The notes under the pieces are model-generated. The model saw only the letters and a list, made by a program, of their open reading frames with translations, was not told where the DNA came from and searched no databases. Of a DNA stretch of 64,000 bases, positions 8,794 to 50,542 are shown in pieces. Location: contig NZ_BSPP01000010.1 of assembly GCF_030161095.1 (NCBI RefSeq), forward strand, positions 248,001 through 312,000. The letters run 5' to 3'. The position numbers and the translations under genes were made by a program. This DNA comes from Cypionkella aquatica (GTDB taxonomy: Bacteria > Pseudomonadota > Alphaproteobacteria > Rhodobacterales > Rhodobacteraceae). The first letter of the stretch is position 1. Each line of letters opens with the position of its first letter.

Positions 8794-9022
8794 GACTTGT
8801 GGCAGGCATCGCAAATTTTACAACATATGGTGGGTGACGAGATCCACGCGCGCAGGTGGTTTTACGGCGGCAGCGCGGATCGCTGGTGCAGTTGGAGATC
8901 GAATCAGCCTTGTGCGCGGCTCTATCCCGCAAATAATTGCTAAAATTACTTATGGATGGCCAATTTCGTAATTTAAGTTCAAAAAATCACCGCCCAGCGA
9001 CACTTTCCGTGTCGATTTGCTG

Positions 9023-9051
9023 TTGACGCCCCTGCCCTGCCGCCATAGTTT
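9023..9051 (+). promoter_or_regulatory. Promoter of the ilvBN operon
   Basis: TTGACG (9023-9028) and TAGTTT (9046-9051) are separated by 17 bp, a good sigma-70 arrangement. Transcription would begin near 9058, about 20 bases before the leader peptide start codon and 160 bases before ilvB. Confidence 0.75.
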
Positions 9052-9077
9052 CCCCCTCGAAGCAAATGGAGGTAGGG

Positions 9078-9125
9078 ATGCGCCGCATTCTAGTCGTCGT
9101 AAGGAAGAAGCGCATGGGCCGGTAA
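9078..9125 (+). CDS. ilv leader peptide MRRILVVVRKKRMGR
   Basis: A 15-codon open frame with an excellent ribosome site (GGAGG at 9068-9072, 5 bases before ATG). It contains the consecutive run Ile-Leu-Val-Val-Val, the three end products of the pathway governed by the downstream acetolactate synthase. The run uses codons that are rare in GC-rich genomes (CTA, GTA, followed by AGG), as expected for a ribosome-stalling sensor of charged branched-chain tRNAs. It overlaps the first arm of the pause hairpin at 9110-9118. It is too short for routine gene finders. Confidence 0.9.
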   Translation: MRRILVVVRKKRMGR

Positions 9126-9179
9126 CGGTTTGACCATAAGGTTTCCCATGCGCCCCCGAGTAACCTCCGGGGGCTTTTT
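9110..9179 (+). terminator. Transcription attenuator of ilvBN
   Basis: Two RNA structures follow the leader peptide. GCGCATGGG (9110-9118) pairs perfectly with CCCATGCGC (9145-9153), forming the pause/anti-antiterminator stem whose 5' arm lies in the leader codons. GCCCCC (9152-9157) pairs with GGGGGC (9169-9174) and is followed by T5 (9175-9179), a rho-independent terminator. AGGTT (9139-9143) can alternatively pair with AACCT (9162-9166), a possible antiterminator base. Stalling at the Ile-Leu-Val codons would favour read-through into ilvB. Confidence 0.88.
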
Positions 9180-9218
9180 GTTGAACAAAGGCCAGTGGGC
9201 CGAACTTAGGATAAGATC

Positions 9219-10973
9219 ATGACGCGTCAGATGACCGGAGCACGAATGGTGGTTCAAGCCCTGAAGGATCAGGGTGTTGAAGTTGTCTTTGGCTATCCGG
9301 GTGGCGCGGTGCTACCGATCTATGACGAGATTTTCCAGCAAAACGACATTCGGCACATTCTGGTGCGCCACGAACAGGGCGCGATCCATATGGCCGAAGG
9401 CTATGCGCGATCAACAGGCAAGGTCGGCGTGGCTTTGGTGACATCGGGTCCGGGGGCGACCAATGCCGTGACCGGGTTGACCGATGCGCTGCTGGACAGC
9501 ATCCCGATTGTGGTGCTTTCGGGTCAGGTGCCGACCTTCATGATCGGCACGGATGCGTTCCAAGAGGCCGATACCATTGGCATCACCCGGCCCTGCACCA
9601 AGCACAATTGGCTGGTGAAGGACACCGACAAGCTGGCGGAAACCATCCATCAGGCGTTTCATGTGGCGTCGCATGGCCGCCCCGGCCCGGTGCTGATTGA
9701 TATTCCGAAAGATGTGCAGTTTGCGACTGGCACCTATATGGAGCCTGCCACCGCCCGGGTGTCGCATTATCAGCCGCGCATGAAAGGCGACCCCGAGGCC
9801 ATCGCGGCCATGGTCGAGATGATGGAAACCGCCGAGCGCCCGGTGTTCTACACCGGCGGCGGCGTGATCAACTCAGGTCTCAAGGCCAGTGCGTTGCTGC
9901 GTGAATTTGTGGCGGCGACGGGCTTTCCGATCACCTCGACCCTGATGGGTCTGGGGGCTTATCCGGCATCGGGCAAGAACTGGCTGGGCATGTTGGGGAT
10001 GCATGGTCTTTATGAGGCCAATCTGGCCATGCATGGCTGCGATCTGATGATCAACATCGGCGCGCGGTTTGATGACCGGATCACCGGGCGCATCCCGGAT
10101 TTCTCGCCGAAGTCGAAGAAGGTGCATGTCGATATTGACCCGTCCTCGATCAACAAGGTGATCCGGGTGGATGTGGGGATCGTGGGCGATATTGCGCATG
10201 TGCTGGAAGAGGCTTTGGCCCTGTGGAAATCGCGCGGCAGTAAGGTCAACAAGGACGGCCTTGCGAAGTGGTGGAAGCAGATTGCCGAATGGCAGGCTGT
10301 GAAGTGCTTGGGCTACAAAGGCTCGGCCAAGGTGATCAAGCCGCAATATGCGCTCGAGCGGCTGGAAGCGCTGACCAAGGGCATGGATCGCTATATCACC
10401 ACCGAGGTCGGCCAGCATCAGATGTGGGCGGCGCAATATCTGGGCTTTGAAGACCCGAACCGTTGGATGACGAGCGGCGGTTTGGGGACGATGGGCTATG
10501 GTTTGCCTGCGAGCATTGGCGTGCAGGTGGCGCATCCTGACAGTCTGGTGATCAACGTGGCTGGTGAGGCGTCGTGGCTGATGAACATGCAGGAAATGGG
10601 CACGGCGATGCAGTTCCGCGCGCCCGTCAAGCAATTCATCCTGAACAACGAGCGTTTGGGTATGGTGCGGCAGTGGCAGGAATTGCTGCACGGCCAGCGC
10701 TATTCGCAAAGCTGGTCGGAAAGCCTGCCTGATTTCGTGAAATTGGCAGAAGCCTTTGGGTGCAAGGGGATACAGGTGACCGACCCCGCCGATCTGGATG
10801 ATGCGATCATGGAGATGATCCGCTATGACGGGCCGTTCATCTTTGATTGCCGGGTGGAGAAGCACGAAAACTGCTTCCCGATGATCCCGTCGGGCAAGCC
10901 GCATAACGAGATGCTGTTGGGCGATGCGGACACGCAGGGCGTGATCGGTGCCAAGGGCGCGGTTTTGGTTTGA
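9219..10973 (+). CDS. ilvB: Acetolactate synthase large (catalytic) subunit
   Basis: ThDP-dependent condensation of pyruvate with pyruvate or 2-ketobutyrate, the first common step of valine, leucine and isoleucine synthesis. The 584 residues show the N-terminal FGYPGGAVLPIYDE with the ThDP-activating glutamate in ILVRHEQGA, the central FAD-binding region, and the C-terminal ThDP/Mg region. There the usual GDGS/GDAS reads GEAS (E450), a conservative Asp-to-Glu change at a metal-ligand position that I believe is shared by related Rhodobacterales enzymes. The downstream NNERLGMVRQWQ is intact. Expressed behind the attenuator, with ilvN following. Confidence 0.97.
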   Translation: MTRQMTGARMVVQALKDQGVEVVFGYPGGAVLPIYDEIFQQNDIRHILVRHEQGAIHMAEGYARSTGKVGVALVTSGPGATNAVTGLTDALLDSIPIVVLSGQVPTFMIGTDAFQEADTIGITRPCTKHNWLVKDTDKLAETIHQAFHVASHGRPGPVLIDIPKDVQFATGTYMEPATARVSHYQPRMKGDPEAIAAMVEMMETAERPVFYTGGGVINSGLKASALLREFVAATGFPITSTLMGLGAYPASGKNWLGMLGMHGLYEANLAMHGCDLMINIGARFDDRITGRIPDFSPKSKKVHVDIDPSSINKVIRVDVGIVGDIAHVLEEALALWKSRGSKVNKDGLAKWWKQIAEWQAVKCLGYKGSAKVIKPQYALERLEALTKGMDRYITTEVGQHQMWAAQYLGFEDPNRWMTSGGLGTMGYGLPASIGVQVAHPDSLVINVAGEASWLMNMQEMGTAMQFRAPVKQFILNNERLGMVRQWQELLHGQRYSQSWSESLPDFVKLAEAFGCKGIQVTDPADLDDAIMEMIRYDGPFIFDCRVEKHENCFPMIPSGKPHNEMLLGDADTQGVIGAKGAVLV

Positions 10974-11041: not shown

Positions 11042-11602
11042 ATGTCTCCGCTAAACATCAAGAAATCGGCTTCCAGCCATTCGGCTTATGAGTTGCGCGA
11101 CCCCAACGCCCCGGTGATTGAGACGCATACTCTGGCGGTGATCGTCGAGAACGAGCCGGGGGTTCTGGCCCGGGTGATCGGGCTGTTTACGGCGCGCGGC
11201 TATAACATCGACAGTCTGACGGTGGCCGAGGTGGATCATTCCAGCCATCGCAGCCGGATCACTGTGGTCACAACAGGCACGCCTGAGGTGATCGTGCAGA
11301 TCAAGGCGCAACTGGCGCGGATGGTGCCGGTTTACGAGGTGCATGATCTGACCGTTGAGGGGCCTTCGGTGCAGCGCGAACTTGCGTTGATGAAGGTGGC
11401 GGGTCGCGGTGAGGCGCGGATCGAGGCTTTGCGTTTGGCCGAGATTTTCCGCGCGCATGTGGTTGATTCTACGCTGGAATCTTTCGTGTTCGAGATGACC
11501 GGGACGCCCGAGAAGATCGACAGCTTTGCCGAGTTGATGCGGCCTTTGGGCCTGCGTGAGATGGCGCGCACCGGTGTGGCGGCGCTGTCGCGCGGGCTGT
11601 GA
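11042..11602 (+). CDS. ilvN: Acetolactate synthase small (regulatory) subunit
   Basis: Regulatory subunit that activates IlvB and confers valine feedback inhibition. The 186 residues include an N-terminal ACT domain from about residue 30 (TLAVIVENEPGVLARVIGLF, then ARGYNIDSL) and the C-terminal ALS_ss_C domain with the DSTLESFVFEMTG motif. The length is typical of the long form (IlvH-like). It lies 68 bp after ilvB in the same operon, separated by a palindromic element that also carries its ribosome-binding site. Confidence 0.96.
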   Translation: MSPLNIKKSASSHSAYELRDPNAPVIETHTLAVIVENEPGVLARVIGLFTARGYNIDSLTVAEVDHSSHRSRITVVTTGTPEVIVQIKAQLARMVPVYEVHDLTVEGPSVQRELALMKVAGRGEARIEALRLAEIFRAHVVDSTLESFVFEMTGTPEKIDSFAELMRPLGLREMARTGVAALSRGL

Positions 11603-49456: not shown

Positions 49457-50542
49457 ATGTTGAATTTCGTGGCAAGGCGCTTGGGCGTCATGGTCTTGAC
49501 TGCGCTGGCGCTGACCTTCGTGGTGTTTTACCTGACCAATTTGCCCCCGAACCTTGAGAAACTGGCGCGCACCGAAGGCTCGGTCCGTATGACGGATCAG
49601 GCGGTTGCGTCTTGGATCGAAAACAACGGCCATGGTGGTTCGGTGTTTGGTCGCTATGCGCAATGGCTGGGGATTGCCCCCGGTTGGGTGCTGACGGATG
49701 CCAAGGGGGTGACGCGCGGGCGCTGTATCCAAGGCAATGCCGATGCTGCCACCGCCGCCACCTATTGCGGCGTGCTGCAAGGAGAATGGGGCTTTTCCAC
49801 CGTTTTCAAAAAGCCGGTGCTGGATTCGGTGCTGCAAAAGCTCGGATCGACCGGTTGGCTGATGATGTGGGTGATGATCGTGATGGTGCCCTGCTCGTTG
49901 ATCATGGGGGTGTTGTCGGGGATGCGCGAAGGCTCGCGTCTGGACCGCAGCCTGTCGATCGTGGCCATCGCCACCACGGCGACCCCGGAATATGTCTCGG
50001 GGGTTATTCTGGTGGCGATCTTTGCCTCGGCCACCGCTGGCATCTCGCCGATTTTGAATGAATGGGGCTGGATCAGTAGCAAGACGCTGTTTCTGGGCAC
50101 CGCAACCAGCGCTATGGACAAGATCACTTTCTGGAACTTCGCGCTGCCGGTGATGACCATTGCGCTGTACGGCATCGGCTATATCGCCCGGATGACCCGC
50201 GCGAGCATGACCGAAGTGATGACCCAGCAATATATCCGCACTGCCCGGCTGAAAGGCGTGCGGTTCCGCGATGTGGTGATGAAACATGCTTTGCGCAACG
50301 CTTTGATCGCGCCCTTTACCGTGATCATGCTGCAATTTCCCTGGCTGCTGAATGGCGTCGTGATCACCGAAGCTTTGTTCAACTACAAAGGCTTTGGCTG
50401 GACGCTGGTGCAAGCCGCTGGCAACAATGACATCGACCTGCTTTTGGGCTGTTCGGTGGTCGCGGTCCTCGTCGTTCTGGTCACGCAACTGATCTCCGAC
50501 ATCGGCTATGTGTTCCTGAACCCCCGTATCCGGCTGGCATGA
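49457..50542 (+). CDS. ABC transporter permease (DppB/OppB type)
   Basis: A 361-residue inner-membrane permease. A first transmembrane helix (VMVLTALALTFVVFYLTN) is followed by a periplasmic loop of about 110 residues, longer than in typical DppB, then five more helices. The EAA loop is in VRTARLKGVRFRDVVMKHALRNAL-like form (here YIRTARLKGVRFRDVVMKHA). Pairs with the downstream permease. Confidence 0.9.
   Translation: MLNFVARRLGVMVLTALALTFVVFYLTNLPPNLEKLARTEGSVRMTDQAVASWIENNGHGGSVFGRYAQWLGIAPGWVLTDAKGVTRGRCIQGNADAATAATYCGVLQGEWGFSTVFKKPVLDSVLQKLGSTGWLMMWVMIVMVPCSLIMGVLSGMREGSRLDRSLSIVAIATTATPEYVSGVILVAIFASATAGISPILNEWGWISSKTLFLGTATSAMDKITFWNFALPVMTIALYGIGYIARMTRASMTEVMTQQYIRTARLKGVRFRDVVMKHALRNALIAPFTVIMLQFPWLLNGVVITEALFNYKGFGWTLVQAAGNNDIDLLLGCSVVAVLVVLVTQLISDIGYVFLNPRIRLA

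Follow-up and report, generated by a model that had tools for sequence, protein, structure and literature searches.

The window, i.e., the whole stretch of 64,000 nucleotides of the Cypionkella aquatica contig NZ_BSPP01000010.1 that was analysed, contains the genes ilvB and ilvN, encoding the large and small subunits of acetolactate synthase, and a short leader region preceding ilvB (Table 1). The closest counterpart of the window ilvB is the ilvB of Cypionkella psychrotolerans (96%). Direct reading of the letters bore out the components listed in the original prediction, namely a promoter, a Shine-Dalgarno (SD) sequence, a 15-codon leader with an Ile-Leu-Val-Val-Val run, a perfect 9-bp stem and a terminator with a T5 tract, all of them located before ilvB. 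The promoter was absent from the output of the sigma-70 scan, which allows spacers of 16–18 nt, against 15 nt here; the ilvB terminator was missing from the output of the simple terminator part of the same scan. The predicted fold of the region 9000–9200 is more stable than the folds of shuffled sequences (z-score −2.62, with 3 of the 200 shuffles equally good).

Table 1. Features of the leader region and of the adjoining genes; positions are those of the window.
Feature	Position	Strand	Basis or remark
−35 TTGACG and −10-like CATAGT	9023–9028 and 9044–9049	+	spacer 15; read directly
Leader Shine-Dalgarno GGAGG	9068–9072	+	read directly
Leader ORF MRRILVVVRKKRMGR	9078–9125	+	ATG 9078–9080, TAA 9123–9125, 15 codons
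Control codons ATT CTA GTC GTC GTA (Ile Leu Val Val Val)	9087–9101	+	codons 4–8
9-bp stem, 5′ arm GCGCATGGG	9110–9118	+	third base of codon 11, codons 12–13, first two bases of codon 14
Small hairpin CCG-GTAA-CGG, stop codon in GNRA-like loop	9119–9128	+	conservation, compensatory variants
Possible second small hairpin ACC-ATAA-GGT within the stem	9133–9142	+	fold of the window; weak
9-bp stem, 3′ arm CCCATGCGC, non-coding	9145–9153	+	perfect match to the 5′ arm
Intrinsic terminator hairpin	9152–9174	+	9152–9153 common to stem and terminator
T5 tract	9175–9179	+	read directly
ilvB, acetolactate synthase large subunit	9219–10973	+	NCBIfam NF006581, 1127.8 bits (cut-off 974)
ilvN, acetolactate synthase small subunit	11042–11602	+	NCBIfam NF008864, 216.5 bits (cut-off 119)

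Immediately 5′ of the −35 hexamer, at 8998–9014, there is a short inverted repeat, CGACACTTTCCGTGTCG; in some of the relatives, similar-looking blocks seem to lie 5′ of TTGAC, and they perhaps represent a regulator site. Rfam searches at gathering scores revealed no riboswitch or T-box at the ilvB leader. The sole match at gathering score in the window, that of Cis52_sRNA (57.9 bits versus a gathering score of 56), is located at 50119–50297 on the minus strand, antisense to an ORF at 49457–50542 that reads like a putative transporter permease.

Conservation and codon usage of the ilvB leader

The comparison comprised 81 ilvB loci, i.e., 80 named loci from the genome collection and the window itself. 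A leader with a tail of the R/C-M/V-G/D/A-R type, together with the stem and the terminator, is present at 77 of them; the loci left out are one where the leader was not found (L010), one whose leader deviates (L064), one decayed (L074) and one where the contig starts inside the element (L085). The leader codons and the terminator are conserved before ilvB in the relatives, as the original prediction had anticipated, and the compact 15-codon form, called notable in the original prediction, proved to be the rule among them (60 of 77). An SD purine core of at least four nucleotides precedes the leader start in 72 of the 77 leaders, a tract of four to eight T residues is found in all 77, and TTGAC accompanied by a −10-like hexamer (at least 4/6) occurs in 42, the window included, with a spacer of 15 in 34 sequences and of 17 in 8. 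The ilvB leaders of the two Pararhodobacter loci, L064 and L074, are diverged or decayed, with the terminator still present, and the leader of L064, MSDALVIFGVGNGMR, does not fit the common type.

The covariance model R2, trained on 54 sequences (set A2, described below) from the window's family, Rhodobacteraceae, matched 175 of the 199 Rhodobacteraceae genomes at E ≤ 0.01. Twenty further loci, drawn from exact-pattern matches and chosen partly for their unusual-looking hairpins, were read as well, and all 20 carry a leader of this type and precede ilvB. Over 385 genomes of the class, the exact pattern search gave a match in 34, and the reversed control pattern in 2; the exact-pattern matches outside the window's family, except that in genome G107, were judged from the letters alone to be due to chance.

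The scan for such leaders across the class covered 107 ilvB upstream regions, taken from 106 of the 109 genomes with ilvB and from G189. Leaders of the RMG type were flagged in two genomes, both of the window's family, and at none of the 105 regions outside it, in what was a coarse scan with two regions shorter than 80 nt. The first leader scan flagged 9 of the 107 regions, compared with 1 on the reverse strand and 0, 0, 2, 0 and 0 in the shuffles; a scan with other criteria flagged 16, versus 13 in the control, and was hence uninformative. The region upstream of ilvB in G189 (L109) contains a differently built leader, MSLLIVPCAPNEGLA; read by eye, it appears to form a long stem clear of the terminator, and its stop codon is once more placed in the loop of a hairpin. 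In L139 and L177, both of one family (f5), ilvB is preceded by the small ORFs MNRTLVLIPWSLSEWS and MTTQLVLIRQPLSGRD, which possibly represent another type of ilvB leader; the control of the scan was high.

At each of the five control positions, 65 to 76 of the 77 leaders have I, L or V; all five codons encode I, L or V in 56 leaders and at least four in 75, with fewer in L041 and L077. The claimed use of rare control codons was confirmed by a comparison of the leaders with the ilvB genes, where GTA accounts for 60% of the Val codons in the leaders and for 3.5% in the genes, CTA and CTT account for 25% and 57% of the Leu codons versus 0.9% and 9.8%, respectively, and ATT accounts for 54% of the Ile codons versus 12%. 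This bias may serve sensitivity to tRNA, or it may merely keep the stretch unstructured. The last control codon ends 8 nt 5′ of the stem, so a ribosome stalled on these codons should, given the size of the ribosome footprint, leave the stem free.

The stem, the stop-codon hairpin and the terminator

The original prediction had foreseen compensatory changes in the paired regions, and they are present in the stop-codon hairpin and in the terminator. The main 9-bp stem is nearly invariant, with a two-sided change in L086 alone among the 77 sequences, the rest being G-U changes and a few mismatches, and for this reason covariation hardly supports it. Set A2 comprises 54 of 99 sequences (38 of the 77, both L107 and L108, and 14 of the 20 further loci) and was chosen to be diverse and to include variants; changes are therefore rarer than the covariation counts of A2 suggest. 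For a structure including the stem, the hairpin and the terminator without the two shared pairs, A2 gave six two-sided pairs versus 1.3 in shuffles, and none of 500 shuffles reached as high a count; sliding the partner by two columns gave five two-sided pairs versus six, with 48% of the cells paired versus 98%.

The three pairs of the stop-codon hairpin are kept in 74 of the 77 sequences, and its loop, GTAA or GTGA in 68 of them, can be read as a GNRA-type loop. The leaders end in TAA (53), TGA (22) or TAG (2), and the ilvB genes in TGA (48), TAA (29) or TAG (4). The outer pair of the hairpin, C-G elsewhere, is U-A in three of the 77 sequences, U-G in three and G-C in one, and it is unpaired in three more. 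In some relatives, the last leader residue is L, G, P or W, and compensating non-coding changes accompany it in the hairpins, drawn by eye, TCT-GTAA-AGA (L252, tail MGL), CGG-GTAA-CCG (L253, tail MGG), GCC-GTAAA-GGC (L254, tail MGP) and CCTC-TGACC-GAGG (L255, tail MGL); the end of the peptide thus follows the RNA pairing, and the otherwise constant RMGR tail looks like the reflection of a constraint on the RNA. The second small hairpin, ACC-ATAA-GGT, did not appear general among the relatives when the alignment was inspected by eye.

The stem and the terminator do overlap, as predicted, but by only 2 nt; the picture of two mutually exclusive stems was not supported as it stood, as the two structures have just these 2 nt in common and form together in the folds. 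The RNAalifold consensus has the stem and the terminator, 7 bp each, next to one another. Partition functions calculated for the 77 sequences with the 5′ arm free gave P 0.96 for both the stem core and the terminator core, and the probability of the two basal terminator pairs decreased from 0.96–0.97 with the arm covered to 0.74–0.81 with the arm free; in these models, the stem contests only the two basal terminator pairs at equilibrium. The small overlap and the coexistence in the folds leave a classical exclusive switch unsupported, and competition for the two basal pairs is proposed instead. At the third position of codon 11, the partner of the common base C9153, G is found in 76 of the 77 sequences, although the codon encodes at least eight amino acids; this supports a constraint acting on the overlap bases.

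Other pairings were considered too. A classical three-segment attenuator with an extended antiterminator was rejected, no other conserved complement to the terminator arms having been seen by eye, and a pairing of the SD with the terminator loop (GGAGGT/ACCTCC in the window) did not look general. A GGTT/AACC pairing of the stem with the terminator loop was seen by eye in close relatives only.

Related leaders before MFS transporter genes and the Rfam family Atu_C8

The search with R2 over the 385 class genomes found 38 genomes with a match, including 5 of the window's family, 11 that belong to 10 other families (36–76.5 bits) and 22 with weak matches. In all 11 genomes from other families, the next gene, as judged by eye from the downstream ORF, appears to encode an MFS transporter of about 400 residues, and tblastn indicated the same identity for G001 (L278), G185 (L279), G034, G197 and G148. 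Three transporter proteins were scanned; two pass the cut-off of TIGR00710 (Bcr/CflA) and one misses it by 1 bit. The transporter leaders read MHILIVVVGERRLDR, MTVTTVVVGAWRLDR, MNTGVVLVGSRRMDR and similar, the V/I runs being short or broken in L286, L287 and L303. In the window's family, the element precedes the transporter at 2 of the 20 transporter loci tested (L303 and L310), and the weak R2 matches in genomes G417 and G420 agree in score with the transporter leaders L310 and L303 of those genomes. The weak R2 matches L288–L301 (up to 30.6 bits) were rejected, since 13 of the 14 read as plain terminators and L290 is cut by the contig end.

Close relatives of the transporter (E ≤ 1e-110) are encoded in 11 of 231 class genomes, and the element precedes 6 of the 11. 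On plasmids, the element was found at three of the five loci tested, which came from nine plasmid matches; its carriers, all three typed as conjugative, are pTB1 of Roseobacter denitrificans OCh 114 (L336) and one plasmid each of Phaeobacter piscinae and Leisingera caerulea. The element is absent upstream of the transporter genes carried by A. tumefaciens pAt2 (L334) and by Robbsia p3 (L338). The loci with the element before the transporter are L277–L287, L303, L310 and L335–L337.

A further model, R3, was built from 13 transporter leaders only, with no ilvB sequence included. In 678 kb, R3 matched 78 of the 81 ilvB loci (all except L010, L064 and L074), with no second match in any ilvB locus at E 0.01. 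The match in the window spans 9075–9180 (64.2 bits, E 8.9e-17), and the attenuator element predicted there is clearly beyond chance. All 13 transporter leaders retain the outer four pairs of the stem, and the fifth to ninth pairs are present in 7, 6, 13, 11 and 4 of them, respectively. For the whole structure, no covariation above shuffles was found in these 13 leaders; the structure is therefore assigned to them by their sequence similarity to the ilvB-type leaders.

The sole Rfam match at the ilvB leader up to E 5 is Atu_C8 (RF02502), with 18.7 bits over the full length versus a gathering score of 50. Matches to Atu_C8 above the Rfam cut-off were found in one of 240 genomes (L089) and in five more genomes among the 36 searched in its family (L101–L105). 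The leaders encoded at these loci, around 1499–1622, are V-rich, e.g., MRMMQVSVVVGRRMGKAA and MNGLLTIVVVGRRMGEAA; the arms of the 9-bp stem are identical to those of the window in five of the six loci read, with one G-U pair in L102, and the stop codon is located in a hairpin followed by the terminator and then by the same kind of MFS gene, the latter being additionally supported by tblastn for L089. Both models matched the Atu_C8 members weakly (R2 six of six, R3 five of six, E 5e-5 to 5e-3), and the weak model match outside the window's family in G107 is also Atu_C8. Thus, Atu_C8 is like the ilvB leader in the arms, the V-rich leader, the stop codon in a hairpin and the terminator; unlike there, the next gene is that of an MFS transporter, and the stem, though intact, lies at a distance of about 7–8 nt from the terminator; an overlap is thus not a universal feature. 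The Atu_C8 model begins inside an ATG, and no SD was noticed before it. Judging by the sequences, Atu_C8 is probably an attenuator leader, and it is suggested that this Rfam sRNA family represents the product of an attenuator. The literature search found no publication on Atu_C8.

It seems probable that one cassette, consisting of a V/I/L-rich leader, a GNRA-type stop hairpin and a stem contesting the basal terminator pairs, serves before two unrelated genes, ilvB in Rhodobacteraceae and the gene of a Bcr/CflA-type MFS transporter, the latter in ten or more other families of Alphaproteobacteria as well as on plasmids of Rhodobacterales, Atu_C8 being the terminated leader of the second kind. 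If this is true, the substrates of the transporter would include branched-chain amino acids or compounds related to them, or else the cassette would be a general reporter of stalled translation. The cassette would link branched-chain amino acid synthesis to a transporter annotated only as multidrug efflux, and its presence before both ilvB and the transporter makes the inducer of the transporter testable. No leader attenuator joined to this transporter was found among the papers listed in the literature search, most subscription journals lying outside its scope.

Proposed mechanism, alternatives and known systems

The SD and leader ORF, the run of codons for the product amino acids and the intrinsic terminator are among the features by which a ribosome-mediated attenuator is recognised, and all three are present here; of a further one, an alternative RNA structure excluding the terminator, the sequences show a 2-nt overlap with constrained bases and, at equilibrium, coexistence of both structures. 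The leader is most plausibly a ribosome-mediated transcription attenuator of ilvBN that senses the charging of branched-chain tRNAs (a rough probability of 0.83). With Ile-, Leu- and Val-tRNA charged, the ribosome would reach the leader stop codon and cover both the 5′ arm and the stop hairpin; with the arm covered, the terminator would close to its last pairs, and RNA polymerase would stop near 9179. When branched-chain tRNAs are scarce, the ribosome would stall on codons 4–8 and the 5′ arm would be free; the stem would then form before the 3′ side of the terminator exists and would hold G9152 and C9153. These bases belong to the basal terminator pairs beside the T tract, and, when they are held, termination would fail and ilvBN would be read. 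In intrinsic termination, the basal pairs form last, at the expense of the RNA-DNA hybrid, which they are thought to invade; for this reason, it can be argued that two basal pairs are sufficient. Stalling, antitermination and the dependence on amino acids are what we infer from this arrangement. The result would be a compact and widely conserved attenuator in which switching seems to depend on two base pairs; how little suffices for antitermination thus becomes testable.

The mechanism of read-through is the point where an alternative deserves consideration, i.e., that the attenuator is the same, with a 9-bp stem that, rather than being an antiterminator, works as a pause hairpin or neutral scaffold next to the terminator, and that read-through arises otherwise, e.g., through the coupling effect of the stalled ribosome. 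The coexistence of the stem and the terminator in the folds agrees with such a role, as do the Atu_C8 group, where the stem and the terminator do not overlap, and L109, in which the stem, long as read by eye, and the terminator seem to be separate; however, the near-constant G in codon 11 points to the overlap, the outer pairs are retained in the 13 transporter leaders where the inner ones vary, and the stem lies where a ribosome that has reached the stop codon could cover it, which makes a stem of this kind rather unlikely. The signal itself might also be broader, the leader being a general sensor of slow translation that is opened by translation-inhibiting antibiotics too. Such a role would account for its position before a gene annotated as a multidrug efflux transporter, and the element does stand before Bcr/CflA-type transporters, also on the three plasmids typed as conjugative, one of which has a gene annotated as chloramphenicol phosphotransferase about 1 kb off; at ilvB, however, the branched-chain codons and the rare-codon bias fit tRNA charging, and we regard the broader sensor as unlikely.

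It is still less probable that the terminated leader or its peptide acts in trans and that the conservation of RMGR reflects this action, since L, G, P or W replaces the last residue in some relatives, accompanied in L252–L255 by compensating non-coding changes; on the other side, both arms are strongly conserved in sequence, the related Atu_C8 is listed as an sRNA in Rfam, and trans action is reported for rnTrpL and peTrpL of Sinorhizobium meliloti in PMC10117765. Finally, a spurious small ORF could have come to lie by chance beside the ordinary terminator of the upstream gene, and inverted repeats of 9-mers are by themselves common (76 in the window and 9–20 in each of ten crude shuffles), but the match of the independent transporter-leader model and the conservation at 77 of the 81 ilvB loci lead us to hold this reading refuted.

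The attenuator of ilvBN sensing tRNA charging, as preferred here, belongs to a known kind of regulation, since ilv attenuation in Alphaproteobacteria is already known. Alphaproteobacterial ilvB leader peptides were reportedly predicted by Vitreschak et al. in 2004, and the ilvBN leader of Caulobacter crescentus is said to have been treated by Tarleton, Malakooti and Ely in 1994. The text of PMC1273637 mentions the ilvB leader peptide of Alphaproteobacteria as previously described (Vitreschak et al. 2004), so the attenuator is real and yet less special than was claimed in the original prediction; in PMC2573895, the same work is cited for ilvIH of S. meliloti. The attenuation of C. crescentus ilvBN, with tandem Ile and Val codons, is described in PMC4117421 with reference to a 1994 paper, and the likeness to the window, by this description only, extends to the operon, the class, the tandem codons and attenuation as such. 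The ilvB-II motif, or ilvBNC uORF, of Corynebacterium, which in PMC11109978 is reported from Corynebacterium only, is similar in having a small ORF with I, L and V codons and a terminator before ilvB; unlike in the case of that motif, no Rfam family matches the leader of the window at gathering score. In the same order, Rhodobacterales, uORFC-8-2 before cysS is presented in PMC8632094 as a proposed ribosome-mediated attenuator, and it differs in its cysteine codons and in the gene that follows. What the leader would add to known ilv attenuation is the two-pair overlap, the stop hairpin and, foremost, the common use of the element before a transporter.
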